64,000 nt of DNA from Candidatus Baltobacteraceae bacterium (GTDB taxonomy: Bacteria; Vulcanimicrobiota; Vulcanimicrobiia; Vulcanimicrobiales; Vulcanimicrobiaceae). The notes under the pieces are model-generated. The model did not search any database. It had not been told where the DNA came from and saw nothing but the letters and a program-made list of their open reading frames with translations. The stretch spans positions 372,001 to 436,000 of the forward strand of contig DASXEW010000003.1 in assembly GCA_036489885.1 (NCBI GenBank), read 5' to 3'. The position numbers and the translations under genes were made by a program. Below, piece after piece: positions 21,177 to 46,524 of this stretch (its first letter is position 1; every line of letters starts with the position of its first letter).

Positions 21177-22406
21177 TTAGCCCACAAGCGGCACTGGAAA
21201 GCTACGAAGCGACCCCGTTTGTCGATTATGCGGAAGGCCGAAACAGCCGCGGATCGTGGTGAGAATCTGTTCCTTCAACCGTCTGCGCAACGTGCCAGGC
21301 TGATATCGAGCCAAGGGAGCGACGATCGCCGCAATTTCCAGCTCATGGAACCCCTTACGGACGAGACAAATGTTAGCCTCTGACTGAAGTGCTTCTGCAA
21401 TTTCCTGAAGCACCGCCAAGACTGATCCGCGGCGCTGAAGCGTCAAACTACCGACATTCTCTCCAATGTGGTCGCACAATTCCTGAAAGCATCCTAGTCT
21501 GCCCTTGCTTACGGCACCGAGTGACTCCACTGTTTGGAATCGCGCGCGCGCCGGCGCATCGCGAAAATCCGTGCCGAGTATGTGGCGTCGAGGATCGCCG
21601 TCACCCTCGCGCGTGAGATAAGGAGGCGAGACTTCTGCAGTATGAAGGTCCAAGGCGACTCGCAGGCCTTTGAAAAATGATCGGGCTTGCGCAGTGGCGT
21701 CACCTGTGCCGTCGGATGCTCCACGGGCTTGTTCTAGGAGCATTGTTTGAAACTCAATGGCGTCGGGAGACACAACGTCTGCCTTGGCTGTAGCGGAAGC
21801 ATTACAATGCTTACATAGGCAAAATGAAGGCAGCGCACTGGCATCGTTGCGTCCATGCGTCGTTTGACGATAGCGGAGCTTTCCAGCGCATCGATCGCTG
21901 CGGTCGACGAGCGACCGCGCATGTTCGACGCAGATCGTCACAAACGACAACTGCCAGTCTCGCTTCACGTGCGGCACCATTTTGATACACATCGGGCACC
22001 ACTGGGGTCCCCTTCGTGGTTTCTTGACCTCGGTATTGATTAGCCAATTATCGAGGATATCGCCGGGCGCTCGTTCCTTAATTGACAACACGCGCAAATG
22101 GCTTAAGAGCGACAATTGACGTATGTCCGATTCGGACCTTGCCGTTCCGCGTGAAAGGCGCGCAAAGTCGCGATCGCTCGCGAGCCTATCAAGACGCCAG
22201 AACTTATCCGGCCTTGCTCCGCACGGCAATGCGGCGCGGCAAAAGTCCTCGTATGAGAGACCGTTTCCCTCAGCGAGCCTCGTTATCCAGGATGAAAGCA
22301 ACTCGCCCGCTATCGGCCTCGGTCTTACCGGCCACAGTGGTGCATTGGCGACCGCCGAAAATTTTTCTTGCGCGTATTCGCGAAATGGATGCGTCGTTAA
22401 CTGCAC
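21177..22406 (-). CDS. TniQ family target-selection protein (second copy)
   Basis: 409 residues. N-terminal TniQ signature R-P-R-P-I-A-G-E-L-L-S-S-W-I-T-R-L-A-E-G-N-G-L-S, then a zinc-finger region with W-C-P-M-C...W-Q-L-S-F-V-T-I-C-V-E-H (about 137-163) and C-L-C-K-H-C (about 199). TniQ/TnsD proteins choose the target site and recruit TnsC. It is the last gene of the tns operon, 3 bp after the first tniQ, and longer with an extra C-terminal part. Which of the two recognises a fixed site cannot be told from sequence. Confidence 0.9.
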   Translation of the reverse strand: MQLTTHPFREYAQEKFSAVANAPLWPVRPRPIAGELLSSWITRLAEGNGLSYEDFCRAALPCGARPDKFWRLDRLASDRDFARLSRGTARSESDIRQLSLLSHLRVLSIKERAPGDILDNWLINTEVKKPRRGPQWCPMCIKMVPHVKRDWQLSFVTICVEHARSLVDRSDRCAGKLRYRQTTHGRNDASALPSFCLCKHCNASATAKADVVSPDAIEFQTMLLEQARGASDGTGDATAQARSFFKGLRVALDLHTAEVSPPYLTREGDGDPRRHILGTDFRDAPARARFQTVESLGAVSKGRLGCFQELCDHIGENVGSLTLQRRGSVLAVLQEIAEALQSEANICLVRKGFHELEIAAIVAPLARYQPGTLRRRLKEQILTTIRGCFGLPHNRQTGSLRSFPVPLVG

Positions 22407-22409
22407 GTC

Positions 22410-23246
22410 TCATGACATACTGCGCCCCGCTTGTGCCAGGTGCTTGGCATCTTGAAATTCGCGCGCGACACTCTCAATGAGGACGTACCGTTTGATAAGC
22501 GACATTTGCTCGATAGCAACAGTAGAGCCGTTGTTGCGAAGTCGTTTCAAACAAGCGCTGTGCACGTTCTCAAAGATGCCGATCGTCGCATCGGCCGGTA
22601 CCAGTCGCGACAGCCCGAGGCTGAGCGTGCCGATCAGTATCCTCTGGAATTCGAGACATATGTCGGACGCTGCTTCACCGATAGGGAGTTCCGCATCACA
22701 CGCAACGCAGGCACCGGGACGTCTAACGGTGCCGACGGAGTTCCACGGCCGGATGGGTTTATTGCAGTGCGCGCATCGATCTATTAGCACGCGTTTGTGC
22801 TTCGAGCAGGTCGTCACAAATCCGAGACGCCAGATTTTTCGAAAATACCCATCTTCGTCGAGACATTGCGTACAGGCTTGAAGACCGGCCCTTCTCCGCT
22901 TTCTGTGCTCGGAGCGAAGAACGAGGAGCCAAGGAACAACTCCCCGTTCTCGCTCCCGAGACAGAACGCGTGTTATTGAATCAAGCGTGGTTTGACGTGC
23001 GAGGTCTTCATCGATACCTGTCACGTGACCCAATGAGGATACGAGTTCAGGATTGTCGCCGTCGTCGATGTCCGCGTTGCCTATCGGGCCTGCATTGAGG
23101 AGAGATGTCAGCTGATGTATTGAGAGTCCATTGCCGTTCGCGACTCGCATAAGCCACGAGGAAAACAATTCTCCTCGCCGCGGTCGCGGTCGCGACGGCA
23201 GAACCATCGGAAGAGGCACGGACCACGCGGCCATCCGCCGTAGCAA
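22410..23246 (-). CDS. TniQ family target-selection protein (first copy)
   Basis: 278 residues with the TniQ N-terminal signature R-P-R-P-R-R-G-E-L-F-S-S-W-L-M-R-V-A-N-G-N-G-L-S and zinc ligands C-T-Q-C-L, H-K-R-V-L-I-D-R-C-A-H-C and C-V-A-C. It lies 12 bp after tnsC and 3 bp before the second tniQ, so both are co-transcribed. It is shorter than typical TnsD, similar in size to TniQ of Tn5053-like and CAST elements. Confidence 0.9.
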   Translation of the reverse strand: MLRRMAAWSVPLPMVLPSRPRPRRGELFSSWLMRVANGNGLSIHQLTSLLNAGPIGNADIDDGDNPELVSSLGHVTGIDEDLARQTTLDSITRVLSRERERGVVPWLLVLRSEHRKRRRAGLQACTQCLDEDGYFRKIWRLGFVTTCSKHKRVLIDRCAHCNKPIRPWNSVGTVRRPGACVACDAELPIGEAASDICLEFQRILIGTLSLGLSRLVPADATIGIFENVHSACLKRLRNNGSTVAIEQMSLIKRYVLIESVAREFQDAKHLAQAGRSMS

Positions 23247-23258
23247 TGGATCGCCCGA

Positions 23259-24131
23259 TTATCGCGATGGGCGAGCCGATGGGACCGTGTAGCCACACAT
23301 CGCCAACGTGCTTTCGTCGATGCATTCTCGACCCGACTCAATCGCCTTCAACGCCGCTGCTCGCACGAGAGCGATTATCTCTCCGATGGTACCCTCCGTT
23401 AGGGAGAGGATTTTTGTTGCAAGCCGTTCTCCCGCGAGATTCGAGGGACGTTTGAGCGGCAATATTGTTTCGAGTCCCGCGAGCAGACGGAGATACTCTT
23501 CACCCATCGACCATTTCGAAAGTTTCATGACCTCGAATCTGTTCGCCAACTGCGTGTGACGATTGAACACATTGAGCGCTTCATAGGTGCCGGCCGCAAC
23601 AATTGGGATCTGGGTCATATTCCCGATATACTTGACGGTGTCGAGAAGAATCGTTCTCGTGGTACTATTTGCATTGAGGATGTGTTGAATCTCGTCGAAA
23701 ATGAGCACTCGTACGCCGACGTTACTCAGCAGCGTGAGAGCTTGTCGACGCTTTTCGGGTGTACGAGCTGAAACGCGAATTGGACCATGGATGGCGTGAA
23801 TGATTTGCTCGTATATTTCGGCTTCGGTTGGATTTGGAGGAACCTCCACGTAGAGAATCTCTACGAGATCTGCCTCCGCGGACGGATCGCGCAGAACCCT
23901 ATGATTGCTCATGAATCGCTGGAGTAAGGACGTCTTGCCGTTATTCGTCAACCCGGCAATGACAAGATTTGGCATTCGACCGCCACGCGGCAATGCGAAG
24001 AGATATTCGAGCTTCGAGAGCACCCTTTCGCTCGTGTCATACTTGATCCAATAGTCCCGAAATAGGCGACTTCGACGATCATCTCCGCCGCCGTCTCCCG
24101 GCGCCGGCGCGGCCACAGCTACTGCTACCAT
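23259..24131 (-). CDS. tnsC: TnsC/TniB-type AAA+ ATPase
   Basis: 290 residues. Walker A G-L-T-N-N-G-K-T-S (about 60-68), Walker B V-L-I-F-D-E-I-Q (about 142-149), sensor-like A-G-T-Y-E-A-L (about 179). This ATPase links target selection by TniQ with the TnsA/TnsB transposase. Its start overlaps the tnsB stop by 7 bp. The short length is TniB-like rather than the approximately 555 residues of Tn7 TnsC. Confidence 0.93.
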   Translation of the reverse strand: MVAVAVAAPAPGDGGGDDRRSRLFRDYWIKYDTSERVLSKLEYLFALPRGGRMPNLVIAGLTNNGKTSLLQRFMSNHRVLRDPSAEADLVEILYVEVPPNPTEAEIYEQIIHAIHGPIRVSARTPEKRRQALTLLSNVGVRVLIFDEIQHILNANSTTRTILLDTVKYIGNMTQIPIVAAGTYEALNVFNRHTQLANRFEVMKLSKWSMGEEYLRLLAGLETILPLKRPSNLAGERLATKILSLTEGTIGEIIALVRAAALKAIESGRECIDESTLAMCGYTVPSARPSR

Positions 24132-25972
24132 GCGCCGTCAACCTCGAACGGCTTGACGGGACCGGTCGGATACGAAGTGTCGGGCGGATTCGCAGCTGCC
24201 GATGGAAGCGCTGGCCTTGTGATCGGCAGTTCGCGCTGTGCGCGATCGCGGCGTTCGTTGGCTCGTCGCGCAGTCTTCGTTCGTAACGCTGCCTCTGAAA
24301 TGAGGGCGTCGTTACGTTCCTTGGCTGCGAAAATGGCCTCTTCATCGACATCTTTGAGACCTTGCGCTTTGAGCTCTTTGCGATATCCAAGATACTCCCA
24401 CATGCTCATCGGCGGGTGTGGCGTACGATACGTGAGCTCGAAGTACTGCTTTAACTCCGGATCCCAGAAGTAGATCGTGCCCAAATCACGCGGATCGTAT
24501 CGAACGATGAACTTGGGCTTCTTACCGTCTGCGTTCATAACCTCAATGTAGTTGCGCAGAATCGGCGAGTAATAATCGATGTAGTGTAACCGGATGCCCG
24601 TCGGCTGTACGGTCTTTCTCGCCGACGGGAGCAGGTTGATGCGCAACATCTCAGGGTCTTCCTCAAGGTCGGGAAGGCCAACGCCACGAGTGGTAGCAGT
24701 ACCGAGCACGGCATCGTTCCACGCTTTGATCGGAGATTTGAGGATGCCGTCGTGATATTTCTGGTGGTAAATATTGGCGACCCATTCTGCCAGCCATCGA
24801 TCGAATTCAACCATCGTCATGCACGATTCCGAATCCGAGTCATAATCGCCGCGCTCCGTCGGGTTTGAGAACGTCGTTCCGGGTAGCTGATGAATCGCGC
24901 CCTCGAGTGTTCCGAAGAATCGCTCGATATGTGCGCCGAAGTGTGGCGTCTTCACCGGTCGATAGTTAACTTCGATGCCCAACTCCTGACAGGCTTCGGT
25001 GAGCCACGGACAATCGAATTCTCGAGCGTTGTCGAGAATTAAGACTCTGGGTCGTCCACGAAAGGGCCAGTCGCTTGCGATCTCAAGCCGCGAAAGCCAT
25101 CCTTCTTTGGGCAGAATCGCGTGCGCGAGGGCAAGAGATGTCGTGATGCGACCGGTTGGATCGAGGGATAGATAATATCCGAGAATTCCTCTGGTTTTTA
25201 CGTCGATAATGCAGGTGAGATACGGGCGACCGATTGGACGTCGATAAAGCTCATCCACGAGAATGATATCGAGCGTCGTATGATCGATTTGCGCAATTGA
25301 CAGCGGGTCGGTCGCATCCGTGAAGGTGCCCGGGCGTGGAAGTCGCTTCTTGAGCGCAGCGCCATAGCCGCGCGCCTTCAGGCGAATCTCTTCGGGAATG
25401 TCGAGAATGCGCTTTCGGACACTGTTGTAGGTTGGCGGCTTCAAATTTTCGGCGATGCAGTGGCGTCGTACTTCATCGTGCGTGCTCTTGATCGTTTTGC
25501 GTTGTTTGGTCAGGTAGATTTGCGCAATCATGAGTTGGACGATGTCGTTGATCTTTGGATTCAGCCTATTGCCCATCTTACCGCCGCTTCGCTTTTTTGG
25601 CGTAAGTGACGACACTCGCCGTGTGGCGAGGAAGAGCGCCATCCATTTGTACATGGTCCGTTCGTTAACGCCAGCCTCGTTCGCAATTCTCTTGACGTCT
25701 TCGCGCGTCCGATTCGGATTGTCCAGAGCCTTTTTCACAAAGGCATAGCGACGACGCGATTCGGCCTGTCCTGGCTTATCGAGATCGAGCGGTTCGATCG
25801 CCGGTCTGTAGTTTTCTGGTGGTGTAAGGTCAGCGATCTTGAGCTGCGTCGATTCTCCCGTCTTGAGATCCTTCGCTTGAACGATCTGATTGCTTAAGAC
25901 ATATTCAACGCGATAGAGGCGGTTGTTGAAGAAAACTTCGGCGCCCTTGCCGATTGGGAACGAACTGTGCAT
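24125..25972 (-). CDS. tnsB: TnsB-type DDE transposase
   Basis: 615 residues from ATG 25972 (M-H-S-S-F-P-I-G-K), chosen because AAAGGAC precedes it; the frame is open upstream, where the tnsA end overlaps it by 68 bp. N-terminal HTH segments (about 60-180), rve/RNase H-like core with D230 (Q-I-D-H-T), D314 (I-L-D-N-A-R-E-F) and E350 (A-H-I-E-R-F-F-G), then a Mu-transposase C-terminal beta barrel. It cuts the 3' ends of the element and joins them to target DNA. The catalytic triad is complete. Confidence 0.94.
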   Translation of the reverse strand: MHSSFPIGKGAEVFFNNRLYRVEYVLSNQIVQAKDLKTGESTQLKIADLTPPENYRPAIEPLDLDKPGQAESRRRYAFVKKALDNPNRTREDVKRIANEAGVNERTMYKWMALFLATRRVSSLTPKKRSGGKMGNRLNPKINDIVQLMIAQIYLTKQRKTIKSTHDEVRRHCIAENLKPPTYNSVRKRILDIPEEIRLKARGYGAALKKRLPRPGTFTDATDPLSIAQIDHTTLDIILVDELYRRPIGRPYLTCIIDVKTRGILGYYLSLDPTGRITTSLALAHAILPKEGWLSRLEIASDWPFRGRPRVLILDNAREFDCPWLTEACQELGIEVNYRPVKTPHFGAHIERFFGTLEGAIHQLPGTTFSNPTERGDYDSDSESCMTMVEFDRWLAEWVANIYHQKYHDGILKSPIKAWNDAVLGTATTRGVGLPDLEEDPEMLRINLLPSARKTVQPTGIRLHYIDYYSPILRNYIEVMNADGKKPKFIVRYDPRDLGTIYFWDPELKQYFELTYRTPHPPMSMWEYLGYRKELKAQGLKDVDEEAIFAAKERNDALISEAALRTKTARRANERRDRAQRELPITRPALPSAAANPPDTSYPTGPVKPFEVDGAW

Positions 25973-26627
25973 TGTGCGTCGTCCTTTCAATGAGCGTTTG
26001 CATCGTAAGATCGATCTGAAGGTTGACCGAAAGCTCGCCTTGAGCCAGAAGAGCCCAAAGCGACTGGAGAATGCGCGGACGCGCGTCCGCAGGGAAGGAG
26101 GCAATGATTGTGTTGATCATTGCTGCAGCGCCATTTAAGCCGGCGTAGATCGCTACTCGATCTTCGTGCGGCACTTCGCGATTGAGATATCGCGATAGAA
26201 ACTTGACGTTGCCGAGATAAGGTGTGTGTATTTCGCGATCGGTGAGGATGCAGTAACGCCACCCGCGCGATCGTGCCGCCGCTAACGCGGCTCGCAATCG
26301 AGCCTTGTACTTCGGCCACCGCTCGCGCAAGCCGCTGCGGTACATCACATCACACAGCACCGGCGGAGCGTCGTGGAACTCGATCAGAAAATCGGGGTAA
26401 CCCCGATGCCAGTCGCCCCCGGGACCTTCGTAGCCCAGTTCGAGCGGCTGCGCCGCGACCGACTTGACCCACGACAGCGAGTCAAGCCACACGGTAACGT
26501 CGCGTTCCAGTTTCGACTCAACGATCACGAGCCCGGACGTCCGCGTCGGGACAAACGCGCGCACGCTCCGATATTGTCGCCGGATCCGCCGCGCCGGCTC
26601 CCCAGAGGGCGGTTTTGGGTCAGCCAC
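25905..26627 (-). CDS. tnsA: TnsA-type endonuclease
   Basis: 240 residues from GTG 26627 (GGCGGAG upstream). The restriction-nuclease-like core shows V-I-V-E-S-K-L-E-R-D (about 34-43), Y-P-D-F-L-I-E-F (Asp about 79) and a C-terminal I-L-T-D-R-E-I-H...L-G-N-V-K-F-L typical of TnsA. TnsA cuts the 5' strands, allowing cut-and-paste. One oddity: the usual E/Q-x-K element after the Asp strand reads C-D-V-M here, so the catalytic Lys appears replaced by Met (about 95). First gene of the tns operon. Confidence 0.88.
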   Translation of the reverse strand: MADPKPPSGEPARRIRRQYRSVRAFVPTRTSGLVIVESKLERDVTVWLDSLSWVKSVAAQPLELGYEGPGGDWHRGYPDFLIEFHDAPPVLCDVMYRSGLRERWPKYKARLRAALAAARSRGWRYCILTDREIHTPYLGNVKFLSRYLNREVPHEDRVAIYAGLNGAAAMINTIIASFPADARPRILQSLWALLAQGELSVNLQIDLTMQTLIERTTHNAQFVPNRQGRRSFLQQPPLSR

Positions 26628-27388: not shown

Positions 27389-27450
27389 GGTTCTGCTAGC
27401 GATTTCACGTAGACTGCATTCATGAAATTGTTGATACGCACCGTTACTAA

Positions 27451-27479
27451 TTGACTTTCAGTCGATAGTCGAAAGTCAA
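27451..27479. promoter_or_regulatory. Perfect 9-bp inverted repeat, possible operator
   Basis: TTGACTTTC (27451-27459), 11 nt, GAAAGTCAA (27471-27479). The minus-strand arm begins TTGACT, a near-consensus -35 for the gene starting at 27388. The other arms and spacer contain a nested AGTCGA direct repeat. The remaining bases of 27389-27662 contain a G-rich run near 27536-27552 but no gene that I can support. Confidence 0.55.
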
Positions 27480-27662
27480 GGTTGAAAGATGAACCTTCAC
27501 CTTAATCTGTTAGCCTAGTATAGCCGCATAGTCGCGGGAGGGGGAGGGGGTCCGAAGAGGGGCACGGCCTCCAAATTTCCCCACGGGTAGCCGCCAAGAG
27601 CGAGGCCTCCGACCATTCGGATCAGAGCGGGAAAGTGCGGGGTCTCGAGGGTCCCCAACGGA

Positions 27663-27878
27663 TCAGCTTCCCGCCTCACCTGCATCGTGCTCTTCACGAT
27701 CAATCTCGTCGAGCTCGCCCTTCACTAAGTCGCCGACTCCACTTAGGGCTCGGTGTAAGAGGACGGCGGCAAGGGGGCCTTCCCTACTGCCGAGCGCATC
27801 GGCTCGACGCTGCAGCCGCTTGCGGTCCGCTCCCGAGATGGGCACCGAGATCCGTTCGTCTCGCTCAGAGTGGGGCAT
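27663..27878 (-). CDS. Ribbon-helix-helix-type DNA-binding protein
   Basis: 71 residues. The segment R-I-S-V-P-I-S-G-A-D-R-K-R-L-Q-R-R-A-D-A-L-G, followed by an amphipathic helix, matches the beta-strand and two-helix layout of CopG/Arc-type RHH proteins; the acidic tail is free. Its ATG lies 23 bp from an array of seven 10-bp repeats, and a -10-like TACTAT is just upstream. RHH proteins commonly bind phased short repeats as a cooperative filament, so autoregulation, and control of the divergent NAD operon, is a natural inference. Confidence 0.7.
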   Translation of the reverse strand: MPHSERDERISVPISGADRKRLQRRADALGSREGPLAAVLLHRALSGVGDLVKGELDEIDREEHDAGEAGS

Positions 27879-27900
27879 GGGGCGCTATAGTACCACGTGG

Positions 27901-27970
27901 TGCAGCAAATTGCAGCATGACGCCGCACAGCGCAGCAAGCTGCCGCACGGTGCTGCATACTGCAGCAATT
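27901..27970. repeat. Seven tandem 10-bp iterons, YGCNGCANNN
   Basis: Units TGCAGCAAAT, TGCAGCATGA, CGCCGCACAG, CGCAGCAAGC, TGCCGCACGG, TGCTGCATAC, TGCAGCAATT follow one another without gaps. G2, C3, G5, C6 and A7 are invariant in all seven; position 1 is always a pyrimidine. The period is one helical turn, so all cores face the same side. The array fills the space between the divergent RHH and NrtR-type genes. Confidence 0.85.
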
Positions 27971-27990
27971 CGATTCGCGGCTGGCGACAA

Positions 27991-28033
27991 TTGACAAATA
28001 TGCATGACGCATATATAATGCCTGCATATATGC
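27991..28033 (+). promoter_or_regulatory. Consensus sigma-70 promoter with embedded palindromes
   Basis: TTGACA (27991-27996), exactly 17 nt, TATAAT (28014-28019): both hexamers are perfect consensus. The spacer holds ATATGC-ATGAC-GCATAT (27998-28014), and GCATATATGC (28024-28033) covers the expected transcription start and the ATG at 28030. Such a strong promoter overlapped by palindromes is expected to be tightly repressed, either by the NrtR-type protein it drives or by the RHH protein. The 5' leader would be only about 4 nt. Confidence 0.8.
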
Positions 28034-28764
28034 GCGATGCATCAAATAACCTTGACGAACAGCGCTTCCTGGCGGAGTACGACCAGTCGAAGTTTCCGCG
28101 CCCGTCGGTTACCGTCGACGTCGCGTTGCTCTGCCCCAGCGACGGCGATCTGCGGACGTTGATCTCCCGCCGTTCCGATTTTCCGTTCAAGAACGAGTGG
28201 GCGCTTCCCGGCGGCTTCGTCGGAATCGACGAGTCACTAGACGAGGCAGCGGCGCGCGTGCTCCGCGATAAAGCCGGCCTCCGCGACATATTCCTCGAGC
28301 AGCTCTACACATTCGGTGATCCTAACCGCGATCCGCGGGGGTGGGTGATTACCGTAAGCTACTACGCGCTTGTGCCCGCAAGCGAACTCGAGCCCTCGGC
28401 ACCGGGTACGCAACTCGCGCGAGTTCGCGTTCCGTGGGAAGGCGACGTCGGCGGGCCCGTTACGATCGAAGATGCGCAGGGCAATTCGTTACCGCTCGCG
28501 TTCGATCACGAGCAAATCGTCGGAGTCGCCGTCAAACGCATTCGCGGCAAACTGGACTACACGCCGATCGGATTCGAGCTATTACCGGAGACTTTTACAC
28601 TCTTCGATCTGCAACAAGTGCACGAGACCGTCCTCGGACGGGATCTCAACAAGGATTCGTTTCGCCGGCGCATGTTGGCGTCTGGCTTACTCGAGCCGAC
28701 GGGCGACGCCCGCGAGGGCACTGCGCACCGTCAGCCGGCACTTTATCGACGCAAGAAACACTAG
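28030..28764 (+). CDS. nrtR: NrtR-type Nudix-winged-helix regulator
   Basis: About 244 residues. N-terminal Nudix fold starting P-R-P-S-V-T-V-D-V-A-L-L, with a degenerate Nudix box (about 59-81): G-G-F-V-G-I-D-E-S-L-D-E-A-A-A-R followed by V-L-R-D-K-A-G-L, where the R-E-x-x-E-E glutamates are V, D and K. C-terminal winged helix (about 190-244) has T-L-F-D-L-Q-Q-V-H-E, F-R-R-R-M-L and a final Q-P-A-L-Y-R-R. This is the NrtR arrangement: catalytic residues lost, the pocket used to sense ADP-ribose or related NAD metabolites. Start ATG 28030 follows the promoter almost without leader. First gene of the NAD operon; SPFH starts 11 bp downstream. Confidence 0.88.
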   Translation: MRDASNNLDEQRFLAEYDQSKFPRPSVTVDVALLCPSDGDLRTLISRRSDFPFKNEWALPGGFVGIDESLDEAAARVLRDKAGLRDIFLEQLYTFGDPNRDPRGWVITVSYYALVPASELEPSAPGTQLARVRVPWEGDVGGPVTIEDAQGNSLPLAFDHEQIVGVAVKRIRGKLDYTPIGFELLPETFTLFDLQQVHETVLGRDLNKDSFRRRMLASGLLEPTGDAREGTAHRQPALYRRKKH

Positions 28765-28775
28765 GAGAACTTTTC

Positions 28776-29795
28776 ATGGCTGAAATTCGACAATTCCCAA
28801 TCTGGCGGCACGCCCGTGTTGACGCGAGTGCTTACGCCATCCACTATCGCAACGCGCGCATCCTCAAGAGCGGCCGCGGCCTGTCGTTCTGGTTCCGGCC
28901 ACTCAGCGACAGCATCGCAGAAGTTCCGATGGACGACCGTGAGTTGACCCTTGTCGTTCACGGCAGGTCAGCAGACTTCCAGGATGTGACGGCGCAAGGA
29001 ATCTTATCGTACCGGACGCAGGATGCAAACGTCCTTGCCGATCATGTTGACTTCACAATCGACTCAAGCGGAGGTAACTACGTTCGCGAGCCGATCGAAT
29101 CGCTTGAGCTCATGCTCTCTCAATTGGCGCAAGAGTTTGCCAACTCATACGTTGCGCGGACACAGTTGCGAGAGCTGCTCATTAACGGCCTCGAGCACCT
29201 TCGCCAGGCGATTGAAGCTGGCCTTAACGACAATGCACTTCTCACATCCATTGGCATCGCCGTTGCTTCCGTTCGGATATCCAGCATACGTCCGTCCGCC
29301 GACCTCGAGAAAGCCATCGAGGCACCCGTGCGCGAGGAGATCAAACAGAAGGCAGATGAAGCGACGTTCGCGCGCCGCGCCTTTGCCGTCGAAAAAGAGC
29401 GCGCGATCGCGGAAAACGAGCTGCAAAACCGCATCGCACTCGCAACGCGCGAGGAAGAGCTCCTTCAGCAGCAAGGGCAGAACGCACGGCGCAAAGCGCT
29501 CGATGAAGCTTCGACCGAGAAAATTACCGCCGAATCGCTTGCCACCACTCGCATCATTGAAAGCGACGCTGAAGCCCAAACTGTTCGTACCGTTGAAGCG
29601 GCACGGAACGAAGTAGAACGCGAACGCCTCGCCGCCTATAACGAAATGGATCCTCGAATTATTCTTGGTCTCGCAGCTCGTGAATTCGCCGGCAAGCTGC
29701 GGACGATCGAACATCTTAACGTCGCACCTGATCTCCTGAGCCCCATGCTCGCGACACTTTTCTCGGCCGGAACGAAACGACTCCAGGAGTCCTGA
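28776..29795 (+). CDS. SPFH/Band 7 domain protein
   Basis: 339 residues from ATG 28776, with AGGAG at 28764-28768. The SPFH/prohibitin-like region spans about 20-190 (L-S-F-W-F-R-P-L-S-D-S-I-A-E-V-P, V-T-A-Q-G-I-L-S-Y-R), followed by a long charged coiled coil (about 195-285, rich in K-E-R-A-I-A-E-N-E-L repeats) and a short hydrophobic end. No N-terminal transmembrane helix is apparent, unlike classical flotillins. Such proteins form oligomeric rings or membrane platforms. It ends 2 bp before the NAD-kinase-like gene. Confidence 0.87.
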   Translation: MAEIRQFPIWRHARVDASAYAIHYRNARILKSGRGLSFWFRPLSDSIAEVPMDDRELTLVVHGRSADFQDVTAQGILSYRTQDANVLADHVDFTIDSSGGNYVREPIESLELMLSQLAQEFANSYVARTQLRELLINGLEHLRQAIEAGLNDNALLTSIGIAVASVRISSIRPSADLEKAIEAPVREEIKQKADEATFARRAFAVEKERAIAENELQNRIALATREEELLQQQGQNARRKALDEASTEKITAESLATTRIIESDAEAQTVRTVEAARNEVERERLAAYNEMDPRIILGLAAREFAGKLRTIEHLNVAPDLLSPMLATLFSAGTKRLQES

Positions 29796-29797
29796 AC

Positions 29798-30727
29798 TTG
29801 CAGGCACTTATACCGCGAGCGGTTATCGTTACACGTCCGACTGACTATGAGCTCCTTTTGGCTCGATACGGCACGCGCGCGCAAGCAAGGTTCGCGCTCA
29901 AGGATCGCGGCCAAAGTCTCGACTTCGTCGATCAAAACCATCGGAAGATCGAGGATGCAATTGCCTCCGTCGTTCGCGGCGTGCCGTCGGCGTGGCGGCG
30001 CGTTCGCCTTACACGCTCACAGCTGGACCGGTTCGTGTTCGAACCCTCCGACATCGTCCTCGCGGTCGGTCAGGACGGCCTGGTCGCAAACGTTGCAAAG
30101 TACCTCACCGGTCAGCCAGTGATTGGCTTTAATCCCGATCGCGGGTTGTACGAGGGCGTACTCGTCCGCAATGATCCGGCCGACACCACCAAGATTATTG
30201 AAGCGCTAATGTCAGGTGCAATTTCCATAGAAGAACGTACGATGGTACAAGTCACGCTTGACGATCGTCAAATGTTACTCGCACTCAACGAGATTTTTAT
30301 TGGACATAGATCCCATCAGTCAGCGCGCTATCGCATCCGCGTAGAACAGCAGGAGGAGCGTCAATCATCCTCCGGCGTTATTGTCTCGACCGGCACCGGA
30401 AGCACTGGGTGGGCGCGGTCTATCAATTCGCAGCGTAGGTCGTCACTGGCGCTACCTGCGGCCGCAGACGCGGTCTTGTCGCTTTTCGTTCGAGAGGCAT
30501 TCCCGGGAACCGGATTCCAGGCAACGCTAACCGAGGCGGCCCTCCATGCAAAAGACACAGCTCTGATTACTTCGGAAATGGATGATTCAGGCGTGATCTT
30601 CGGCGACGGCATTGAGGACGATAGTATTGCGTTCACCTGGGGAGCATCCGCCACAATTTCCGTAGCAGCTCATCGATTAAGACTTGTCGTTAGCGCTTCA
30701 ACTGCGATCCTTGAGCGAGCGGCTTAG
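29798..30727 (+). CDS. NAD kinase-like protein
   Basis: 309 residues from TTG 29798 (AGGAG at 29785-29789). NAD-kinase fold: the usual G-G-D-G motif is V-G-Q-D-G (about 89-93) followed by P-V-I-G-F-N-P-D (about 107-114), and the T-G-T-G-S-T-G motif is present near 198-204. The catalytic Asp is kept, but Gly to Gln in the first motif and a non-standard N-terminal segment suggest a divergent subfamily. It may phosphorylate NAD or NADH, or only bind it. Between SPFH and TIR genes with gaps of 2 and 11 bp. Confidence 0.83.
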   Translation: MQALIPRAVIVTRPTDYELLLARYGTRAQARFALKDRGQSLDFVDQNHRKIEDAIASVVRGVPSAWRRVRLTRSQLDRFVFEPSDIVLAVGQDGLVANVAKYLTGQPVIGFNPDRGLYEGVLVRNDPADTTKIIEALMSGAISIEERTMVQVTLDDRQMLLALNEIFIGHRSHQSARYRIRVEQQEERQSSSGVIVSTGTGSTGWARSINSQRRSSLALPAAADAVLSLFVREAFPGTGFQATLTEAALHAKDTALITSEMDDSGVIFGDGIEDDSIAFTWGASATISVAAHRLRLVVSASTAILERAA

Positions 30728-30738
30728 GTGATCGCGAA

Positions 30739-32028
30739 ATGAAGGACGATCTGCGGTTTGCGATCCTCGCTGAGTTGCGCCGACGGCAAGAAGGTGGACG
30801 TAGCGAGTACGAGTGGGCGGCCTACACGGACATTGCGACGGCGCTGAAGACTGCTTTGGATCATGTGCTGCAACAATGCGACGAGCTTGTACGCGACGGA
30901 TTTATTGAAGTTCGATCCGGCGCTAATCGCAGCGGTGCCCGGGTACGCGTCACCACCAGCGGCAGAGACTATCTCGAACAATGGCTTAAAGATCAGGATG
31001 CGGCAGCTTCCGATCTTCTGTTGTCGTCCGAGCCGGTCAAAAAGTACCAATGCGACCTCTTCGTTTCTCATGCCTCAGAAGATGCAACGTACATCGATCC
31101 AATCGTCGCAACGTTGGAAGCGGGCAATATCAAGGTTTGGTACGACCGGAATCTTATGCAAATGGGAGCTAAAGCGTTCGTCGCGATGAACGAAGGCGTA
31201 ACCGAATCACGCAGCTTCCTCATTTTTGCAAGTCCGGAATACTTCAAGAAACATTTTGCAAAGAATGAACTGGGGGCGATCTTACATCTCAACTCGTTCG
31301 ATAAGGATCGTCGTATCATCGTCGTCCTTTATGGGATGTCGCAAGCCGACCTTCGACGTGACCACGCAATGCTCTCGACACATACCAACATTGATTCGGC
31401 GCTCCTAAGCGGAGAAGACATCGTACGTGCTGTCGTACACGAGCTACTAACGGGACAGGAGCTACCTCCGCCCAAGCTCGAGACCGACATCGAACCCGGG
31501 CCACGCGCTGTCGCGCAGCTCGAACCGAGTATCTATGTTCCGAATGGCCACAACCCGCCTTACGATGTTCTGGACGATACCGGCATTACCAAGAAGCCAA
31601 CCCTCGAGATACAGTGGTTCACTCCGGGATTTGTAGATCACACGTTCTCGATAAAATGGTCGCTGCGCAATACCGGTTCTACCACGGCACAGGATGTAGC
31701 CGTTTTCATGCCGGGGCTGAAAGTATACCGTGTGACGAAATTGGAACCCGGCGTTCACGCCGACCAATGCATCCGATTCGATGACCGATACGCATACTTC
31801 GAAATCATGAAGCAACCGGTTTCAGCCGTTATCGAGTTTTCTGACTCATCCGATCGCATTTATCGTCAATACGCGACCGTCAATGCGTTTCCCAAATGGA
31901 ATGAAAACGAAGCGGAATACCTTACGACGGAACTCGGATATCCATATCGTGTATCCAACCGAATTGTGACGATCGACGACAATGATCGTTTTCATCGTTC
32001 TCGTTCGATCGGCTGGCCAAGAGACTGA
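30739..32028 (+). CDS. wHTH-TIR protein with C-terminal beta domain
   Basis: 429 residues. Residues about 1-85 look like a winged helix (Y-T-D-I-A-T-A-L...L-V-R-D-G-F-I-E-V). Residues about 103-235 are a TIR domain: C-D-L-F-V-S-H-A-S-E-D, V-W-Y-D-R-N, S-R-S-F-L-I-F-A-S-P-E-Y and the alpha-C K-N-E-L with the expected catalytic Glu (about 177). The C-terminal approximately 150 residues are beta-rich, with W-S-L-R-N-T-G. Bacterial TIR effectors cleave NAD or make signalling ADP-ribose derivatives. Position after an NAD-kinase-like gene supports an NAD role. A wHTH fused to TIR is unusual. Confidence 0.85.
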   Translation: MKDDLRFAILAELRRRQEGGRSEYEWAAYTDIATALKTALDHVLQQCDELVRDGFIEVRSGANRSGARVRVTTSGRDYLEQWLKDQDAAASDLLLSSEPVKKYQCDLFVSHASEDATYIDPIVATLEAGNIKVWYDRNLMQMGAKAFVAMNEGVTESRSFLIFASPEYFKKHFAKNELGAILHLNSFDKDRRIIVVLYGMSQADLRRDHAMLSTHTNIDSALLSGEDIVRAVVHELLTGQELPPPKLETDIEPGPRAVAQLEPSIYVPNGHNPPYDVLDDTGITKKPTLEIQWFTPGFVDHTFSIKWSLRNTGSTTAQDVAVFMPGLKVYRVTKLEPGVHADQCIRFDDRYAYFEIMKQPVSAVIEFSDSSDRIYRQYATVNAFPKWNENEAEYLTTELGYPYRVSNRIVTIDDNDRFHRSRSIGWPRD

Positions 32029-33553
32029 GTTGCTGACGACTTTGCGAGCGAAGGACCCTGACGTCGTTACGCGACTCGCCCAGCGAATCGTTGATGGAAG
32101 CTTTGTCCCGTTCATTGGGGCCGGCTGCTCGAGAGAGCTGCTCGCAGGGAACGATTGGGCAGGGATCACCGAACACACGCGGGCGGCGCTTGGCTCTAGT
32201 ACTTCAACAAGCTACACGGCCATTGCGCAGGAGTATGAGGAGAGGTTCGGACGCGCTCAACTTGTCGACTTTCTCAGATGTCATCTCACGATCCTGAAGT
32301 GGGACGACAAGGCAGGATACGCACAGCTCGCAATGATGGAGTTGCGCTTCCCATCTTATTACACAACGAACGTCGACGATGCTACGGAGGCTTGTTACCG
32401 GACATACAATAAGCGACTACACGTTGTAGTTGTGCAGGAAGATCTTAAAGCCCGTCAGTCGGGCGCGCCGACACTTTATAAGTTTCACGGCGATCTGCGG
32501 CATCCAGACTTGCTCGTTTGGACTTCCAATGACTATAAACGGCGGCTTGCATCAGACGGCGACAGCTTCATGCACGTGCTTCTGAGGGCTGACGTGCTAG
32601 CAAAGTCCCTCTTGTTTATTGGCTATTCGCTGCAAGATCCGCACATTCTCGATCTACTCGATGATATGCGTACACGGTATCCCGACGCCATGAAAGAAAG
32701 CGTCATTGTGGAGTTCGGCATATCGCCACCCCTCCGCGAGAAGGCGAGCGAACTCGAGATAACTGTCGTGCATACGAGCGAGCTGTATGACGTGACCTCG
32801 CCTGCGGAAGCCTTCGACCTTTTTCTGGCCGATCTTGGGATTGCCGTCAAGGCACACGATACGAAGCTCGAGATGGAGACGCTCTTCTCACACGACGGAC
32901 CTGGTTTACCCGTGCTCTCTGACTATGATCTCAGATCTCTTGAAGACGCACTTCCGAACATCCCGCCAAACGAACAGATTAAGGGCTTCCGTGCAACATG
33001 TTGCTGGAAGTCGATACCAATAGGTTTCGAGAGCCGAATTCTGGACCTCTATCAACGGCTGTGCCTTGAAGCGTCGGCTCGCGACGTCCCCGACCTGACA
33101 TCGGCACTCTTCCTGATGGAGGGTCGACTATCGACTGACTTTCTTTTTGGAATGTACAGTGCGGCATTTACCCTGTACCGACACCCAGCACCCAACGCTT
33201 TCGGACATCATATCGTTCTGAAGCATTTGCAGGATTTGCCAATGACGAAAGTGCTGCTCATCTCGCTCGCTGCAGCGCTGCTCAAGGAGCACAACCTACC
33301 ACGTAATCAGAGCTTCGCCGATTCGGTGGCTATGGTGCCAGGCTATGGCAAGGAGACCCTCGATGAGTTTCAAGAACCTGCGCGATCTCAAGTAGCAGCA
33401 GTTTATGCGGACATTTTTCATGGCTCAGCGCGTGAGAACCCGCTAGAACAGCCTAATCGTCCCCTTAACTTCGGTGTAAACACATTTCAGCAATTGAGAA
33501 ATGATTTGATTCGACATATGCCGCCTCGACCGCAGCAGCACGGCAAGGCGTAG
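31982..33553 (+). CDS. SIR2-like domain protein
   Basis: Up to 523 residues. SIR2_2-type fold in the N-terminal 280: V-P-F-I-G-A-G-C-S (about 42), Y-Y-T-T-N-V-D-D (about 129), K-F-H-G-D (about 167) and F-I-G-Y-S-L-Q-D (about 212). The C-terminal 240 residues are unrecognised and helical. Stand-alone SIR2 proteins in defence systems (ThsA, DSR-type, SIR2-HerA, SIR2-APAZ) deplete NAD on phage sensing; the neighbours here make that plausible. Start: ATG 31982 overlaps the TIR gene by 47 bp; a TTG at 32030, two bases past the TIR stop, is an alternative. Confidence 0.87.
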   Translation: MIVFIVLVRSAGQETELLTTLRAKDPDVVTRLAQRIVDGSFVPFIGAGCSRELLAGNDWAGITEHTRAALGSSTSTSYTAIAQEYEERFGRAQLVDFLRCHLTILKWDDKAGYAQLAMMELRFPSYYTTNVDDATEACYRTYNKRLHVVVVQEDLKARQSGAPTLYKFHGDLRHPDLLVWTSNDYKRRLASDGDSFMHVLLRADVLAKSLLFIGYSLQDPHILDLLDDMRTRYPDAMKESVIVEFGISPPLREKASELEITVVHTSELYDVTSPAEAFDLFLADLGIAVKAHDTKLEMETLFSHDGPGLPVLSDYDLRSLEDALPNIPPNEQIKGFRATCCWKSIPIGFESRILDLYQRLCLEASARDVPDLTSALFLMEGRLSTDFLFGMYSAAFTLYRHPAPNAFGHHIVLKHLQDLPMTKVLLISLAAALLKEHNLPRNQSFADSVAMVPGYGKETLDEFQEPARSQVAAVYADIFHGSARENPLEQPNRPLNFGVNTFQQLRNDLIRHMPPRPQQHGKA

Positions 33554-45792: not shown

Positions 45793-46524
45793 TCAAGACT
45801 CGTCTGTCAACTCGGATATTGCGAGGACGATCTGCGCCGCGACGTTAGCGGCGGGCGTGACATTCCACGGCGTCGGAAGAAAGCGGCGAACGAGCCTTCC
45901 GGGAGCCGTAAACGACCAGCCGACATCGCCGGCGTCGCTCAACGGCCCGTTGTACGTGATTCGATACGGACCAATTAAGCGCTCGGACCCAGAAGTCGGG
46001 ACCCTGAAACCCAGCCGTTCTCCGATACCGCGAAACACGTCCTCGACCCACTCGCGGTAGGGCTCGCCATGATCCTCGCCACCTTTAGGAAGAGCGTTGA
46101 CGGTCATGATCATGCGCGGCTCGTCTTCCTCTATAAGTTCGGCGTCCTCGAGCACTCCACGCAGGTTCCCACCTTGGCTGGCAGGCCGACGGATCCAGAC
46201 AAAGCTCCGGGTTAGAGGAGTAGGCCTCAGTCGCTCGCCCACACCGCGAATAGTCTCATCCTCGGCCCCGTCCCGCCGGAAAATAACGGTCGTTGAGATC
46301 GGATCGGAGGTTGCCGCGTACGAAGGGAACGTGAGGACCTCGCAGGCCAGGATACCGCTCTTCCGTAGCCGCTCGGCTTCGCGCTCGACCAGCCGGCGGA
46401 CGATGCCGCCTTGCGACTCACCCGTGTGGTCTCGGATCTCTTGGAGCAGCCAGATCGTCGAAGGATACATTGAGATAGGGTACGGCCGGGCCTTTTCCCC
46501 GGTTCTGACTTGGTAGGGTGCCAT
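45793..46524 (-). CDS. Hypothetical protein with N-terminal RHH-like segment
   Basis: 243 residues. Residues about 13-52 (Y-P-I-S-M-Y-P-S-T-I-W-L-L-Q-E-I-R...I-V-R-R-L-V-E-R-E-A) look like a ribbon-helix-helix; the rest is unrecognised. The gene follows a pair of TCTTRTATAAGA palindromes, as expected for autoregulation by an RHH repressor. Likely DNA-binding partner of the Ymh-type protein, possibly as a toxin-antitoxin-like pair. Confidence 0.65.
   Translation of the reverse strand: MAPYQVRTGEKARPYPISMYPSTIWLLQEIRDHTGESQGGIVRRLVEREAERLRKSGILACEVLTFPSYAATSDPISTTVIFRRDGAEDETIRGVGERLRPTPLTRSFVWIRRPASQGGNLRGVLEDAELIEEDEPRMIMTVNALPKGGEDHGEPYREWVEDVFRGIGERLGFRVPTSGSERLIGPYRITYNGPLSDAGDVGWSFTAPGRLVRRFLPTPWNVTPAANVAAQIVLAISELTDES

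Follow-up and report, generated by a model that had tools for sequence, protein, structure and literature searches.

Between two divergent genes of a Candidatus Baltobacteraceae bacterium lies a run of seven short repeats, and this locus raises the question of which protein occupies them and which of the two neighboring genes is controlled from there. The window, i.e. the whole stretch of 64,000 nucleotides that was analysed, contains a small gene read leftward from the repeats and, on their right, an operon that begins with an NrtR-type regulator (Table 1). An earlier note on this DNA had placed and oriented both genes correctly and had recognized the regulator, whose Nudix and NrtR winged-helix domains are confirmed by Pfam. 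It had also claimed that the small gene encodes an RHH protein and suggested that this one protein may set the activity of both promoters, two proposals that fare less well below. The array is best read as a multi-site operator of an ordinary kind, serving a small DNA-binding protein specific to this lineage.

Table 1. Coordinates of the repeat array, of the genes and predicted signals around it, and of viral arrays used for comparison
Feature	Position	Strand	Support
Array of seven YGCNGCANNN units, period 10 bp, palindromic core TGCNGCA	27901-27970	no strand	sequence and significance tests
Orphan ORF, 71 aa, probable gene, RHH-like in appearance only	27663-27878	-	coding score
Inferred promoter of the 71-aa gene: extended -10 TGG-TACTAT (27892-27887), -35 position 27915-27910 in units 1-2	27887-27915	-	
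NrtR operon promoter, perfect sigma-70 TTGACA-17-TATAAT	27991-28019	+	12/12 consensus
Predicted NrtR-type operator 1, ATATGCATGACGCATAT, in promoter spacer	27998-28014	no strand	counterpart in three homologous operons
Predicted NrtR-type operator 2, ATATGCGCGATGCAT, over start codon	28028-28042	no strand	counterpart in three homologous operons
NrtR-type regulator, Nudix and winged helix	28030-28764	+	PF21906 E 1e-22, PF00293 E 9e-10
SPFH/Band_7 protein	28776-29795	+	PF01145 E 1e-14
NAD-kinase-like protein	29798-30727	+	NCBIfam NAD kinase models down to E 5e-12, under their cut-offs
TIR-domain protein	30739-32028	+	PF13676 E 3e-15; PADLOC ThsB
SIR2-like protein (SIR2_2), start codon uncertain	31982-33553	+	PF13289 E 4e-21; PADLOC ThsA E 1e-23
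Viral in-gene array, example	L047:10164-10200		
Viral in-gene array, example	L056:2195-2231		
Viral in-gene array, example	L063:4354-4390		
Viral in-gene array, example	L060:3365-3401		

A phased array with a palindromic core

The seven units read, in order, TGCAGCAAAT, TGCAGCATGA, CGCCGCACAG, CGCAGCAAGC, TGCCGCACGG, TGCTGCATAC and TGCAGCAATT. Five columns (G2, C3, G5, C6 and A7) are invariant in all seven, and the first column holds T in five units and C in the other two. The core TGC-N-GCA is a 7-bp palindrome, perfect in the five units that begin with T. The array is real and non-random. A three-unit pattern allowing up to two mismatches found 11 matches in the window, every one of them in the array, for an expectation of 0.11. 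A scan of the window free of any motif, over periods of 6 to 15, returned the array as five invariant columns over seven units; all periods other than 10 gave at most two invariant columns anywhere, and two was also the maximum reached in 100 dinucleotide-preserving shuffles. The description of these repeats as exact iterons holds for the period and for the core, including the five invariant bases, but the units are not identical to one another.

The six spacers between the units are all different (AAT, TGA, CAG, AGC, CGG and TAC). Together with the palindromic core, this suggests a constrained array of binding sites rather than a recent tandem duplication, and a satellite duplication as the origin of the array was rejected because the spacers differ. 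A conserved core with free spacers would be the expected look of a set of protein-binding sites. Two other natures of the array were considered and rejected: the ORFs that cross it have coding scores of about zero or below, i.e. they score as non-coding, and as an RNA element it has no Rfam match, with folding z values (-0.24 and -1.87) not clearly beyond those of shuffles.

The organism's genome (3.48 Mb) has no second copy of the four-unit pattern, which is also absent from 147 other genomes. The sole other exact two-unit site in the same genome, with T first in both units, falls within ORFs, and a regulon of the array elsewhere in this genome was therefore discarded. In public genomes, 72 stretches with at least five units were collected. 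At least one spacer is repeated in all of them but one, a short array (L131) that is the only one of the 72 with all spacers different. Many of these stretches carry a single spacer throughout, as recent tandem duplication would give, and most lie inside ORFs. Two five-unit arrays of other genomes (L129 and L126) were inspected at their loci, and their contexts proved unrelated.

The small gene and its own promoter

Only 2% of 51 wrong-frame ORFs of comparable size have a coding score as high as that of the 71-aa ORF, which is therefore probably a gene. Its product, in which a strand-like RISVPIS precedes two helices, has an appearance that is only suggestive of an RHH protein, and the identity asserted previously is not borne out. 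Searches of Pfam, NCBIfam, PADLOC and PHROGs gave no match to the protein (even at E 10 for Pfam and PHROGs), and PDB sequences gave no relevant one. A single-sequence AlphaFold model, built without an alignment, places two helices after an unstructured N-terminus with moderate confidence (pLDDT 73.5), and a fold search with this model returned nothing significant. As weak evidence, the protein scores no better than shuffles against a home-made RHH profile of eight short sequences. No credible homologue was detected in the genome and viral contig scans; the one weak match (G102, E 7e-4, 40% identity), which lies in an open frame of 252 aa and is itself interrupted by a stop, was discounted. 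No second genome was found to hold both the gene and the array.

A separate 243-aa ORF of the window (45793-46524, minus strand) has an RHH-like start and a weak match to PSK_trans_fac (E 0.15), and its upstream region and the left edge of the array have a 9-mer in common, ACCACGTGG, which may be a coincidence.

The best minus-strand promoter site in a consensus scan is weak, with 7/12 positions plus the TG extension. Its -35 position falls inside the array, in units 1-2, with the -10 just beyond the array edge, an arrangement for which autorepression is the natural mechanism. Each palindromic TGCNGCA would take up one dimer of a small DNA-binding protein, most probably the one encoded by the adjacent gene. 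As the sites are 10 bp apart, these dimers would be aligned on one helix face and could touch one another, so that binding along the 70 bp would be cooperative. The filled array, covering the -35 with its units 1-2, would then shut off the 71-aa gene, which amounts to negative autoregulation. Autorepression from phased repeats is known for RHH regulators, and in the case of ParR these are 10-bp repeats (PMC5016525).

We infer the binding of a protein to the array, the 71-aa product as this protein, the leftward promoter and the repression. A phased palindromic array beside a small gene with coding character, and with the best-placed -35 of that gene inside it, fits a cooperative autoregulatory operator, and this part of the earlier interpretation survives, whereas the RHH identity and the joint control of two promoters do not. 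The reading in which the array is such a multi-site operator, most likely bound by the autorepressing 71-aa product, with the NrtR operon mainly under NrtR, is given a probability of about one in two. Counted against the autoregulatory operator are the unrecognised nature of the protein, the weakness of the leftward promoter and the failure to find a second pair of gene and array.

It is unlikely that the array is occupied instead by some other protein, encoded by the host or by an element, for example one that oligomerises on direct repeats in the manner of BldC or of a response regulator. BldC and some response regulators do form cooperative multimers on direct repeats (PMC5859096), and the 71-aa product is recognised by neither family nor profile searches; the palindromic units, however, favor symmetric dimers over head-to-tail binding, and a cluster that is the only one of its kind in the genome makes a regulator with a wider regulon improbable.

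Control of the NAD operon in the window and in its relatives

Three loci from the same family (L037, L038 and L039) carry NrtR, SPFH and NAD-kinase-like genes in the same order as the window. The earlier note had asked for the array to be sought upstream of homologous operons; it is absent in all three, and no match to the 71-aa protein was found in these loci either. The window thus has both the array and the small gene, and these relatives have neither, a pattern that counts in favor of the autoregulatory operator. Since the relatives have the same NrtR-SPFH-NADK genes, the array does not belong to the conserved control of the NAD operon. What the four operons do have in common is a pair of ATATGC-N5/6-GCAT palindromes over the core promoter, the first in the promoter spacer and the other a short way downstream; across the four operons, these differ by one or two bases. 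It can be predicted that NrtR binds these palindromes at 27998-28042. The parsimonious reading of this comparison is that NrtR would control the operon, the array being a local addition.

Between the last core of the array and the -35 of the NrtR promoter lie 23 bp, a distance from which a protein bound upstream could act. On this basis, and with the array lying between the two genes, the 71-aa protein could set both divergent promoters and so also switch the NrtR-SPFH-NADK-TIR-SIR2 operon. This proposal is nevertheless improbable: the three operons of the same family keep the two NrtR-type palindromes with neither array nor small gene, and the NrtR promoter, which matches the consensus at every position, shows no obvious dependence on an activator. 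In the preferred reading, the NrtR operon promoter would be mainly under the control of NrtR bound to its own pair of palindromes, and any effect of the array on this operon would be a secondary, lineage-specific addition. No sign of such an effect emerged from the comparison. More doubtful still is a stronger version, in which a small inserted protein, from a DNA-binding family not yet recognised, would form, with the array, a second cooperative switch on a NAD-based defence operon made of NrtR-SPFH-NADK and of the gained TIR and SIR2 genes.

The TIR and SIR2 genes (30739-33553) form a Thoeris-like pair, ThsB-like and ThsA-like according to PADLOC, joined to the NAD module; the operons of the three relatives gave no match to either of them. 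The NAD-kinase-like protein reads VGQDGL, and GQDGL is common to the three family homologues, where NAD kinases usually carry GGDGT. The SPFH-NADK pair is also found elsewhere in the phylum and on plasmids of Streptomyces, Kitasatospora, Roseomonas, Rhizobium and Cupriavidus, an NrtR-like gene being divergent from the pair on the Rhizobium and Cupriavidus plasmids. Two GTTGTAC-type palindromes lie between the NrtR-like and SPFH genes of the Cupriavidus locus (L036).

A same-genus genome contained no flanking DNA matching the stretch tried for an empty-site comparison, and short matches of 25-51 bp between relatives and 27389-28030 were judged to be due to chance.

Binding of the 71-aa protein to its own array, if it occurs, would make this locus a compact case of cooperative autoregulation, by a DNA-binding family not recognised so far. 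The sounder lesson comes from the comparison of operons, namely the pair of NrtR-type palindromes over the NrtR-SPFH-NADK promoter in four operons of one family. As this module is followed in the window by TIR and SIR2 genes, a link between the sensing of NAD metabolites and NAD-based defence becomes testable.

Comparison with known systems

A small protein gene beside an array of short repeats is also the arrangement of ParR/parC, with its 10-bp repeats, and of omega of pSM19035, with its iteron arrays. RHH partition proteins bind arrays of 7-10 iterons, and the same proteins repress promoters (PMC5016525). By analogy, the 71-aa protein and the array might work like these partition and repressor systems, provided that the protein binds. 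The window differs from them by its chromosomal site, by an RHH fold that is unconfirmed, by a core sequence that is unrelated as far as is known, and by the motor ATPase, which is missing among the neighbors tested: no ParA-like or ParM-like Pfam match, as would mark a ParMRC or ParFG-type locus, was found in the 20 neighboring proteins scanned.

The same YGCNGCA core at 10-bp spacing is found in phages. A scan of viral contigs returned 22 of them (L044-L065) with at least four units, and in at least 15 of these, the covering ORF being judged by eye, the array lies within a gene that looks like those of phage replication initiators; the four initiator genes that were tested all match PHROGs 'replication initiation protein' families. 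These arrays look like in-gene iterons of replication origins. They often adjoin GGATTC-type repeats. In the window, by contrast, the array is intergenic, the ORFs crossing it score as non-coding and the neighboring genes are not initiators. Moreover, the phage spacers are mostly purine-first, unlike those of the window, and this difference, added to that of context, led to the phage arrays being treated as a parallel rather than a relative of the window array.

The phage arrays, and the 10-bp repeats bound by RHH partition proteins (PMC5016525), raise the idea of a replication-origin or centromere-like iteron cluster left behind by a mobile element. Genes for Tn7-like transposition (TnsA-like, Mu-type transposase, TniB and two TniQ) indeed lie nearby at 21177-26627, by a defence-like cluster; an end of this element was looked for near 27.4-27.9 kb and no clear one was found. 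Such an origin for the array is very unlikely, given its intergenic position on a 2.1-Mb contig, the purine-first spacers of most phage arrays, the lack of any initiator or of a ParA or ParM-type motor among the neighbors tested, and the lack of similar DNA in the phage and plasmid collections searched.

MetJ-type operators are a further parallel. They too consist of tandem short palindromes, which suit one symmetric dimer per unit, with met boxes spaced by 8 bp as against 10 bp in the window array; no homology to MetJ was found. For the NrtR side of the locus, a known case is the mycobacterial NrtR, an autorepressor acting on a palindrome at its own promoter, from which it is released by an ADP-ribose intermediate (PMC6800001). 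The array departs in sequence and in geometry from the palindromes common to the homologous NrtR operons, and the features expected of an NrtR operator, a palindrome placed at the promoter of the regulator itself and common to homologues, are found at 27998-28042 instead of in the array.
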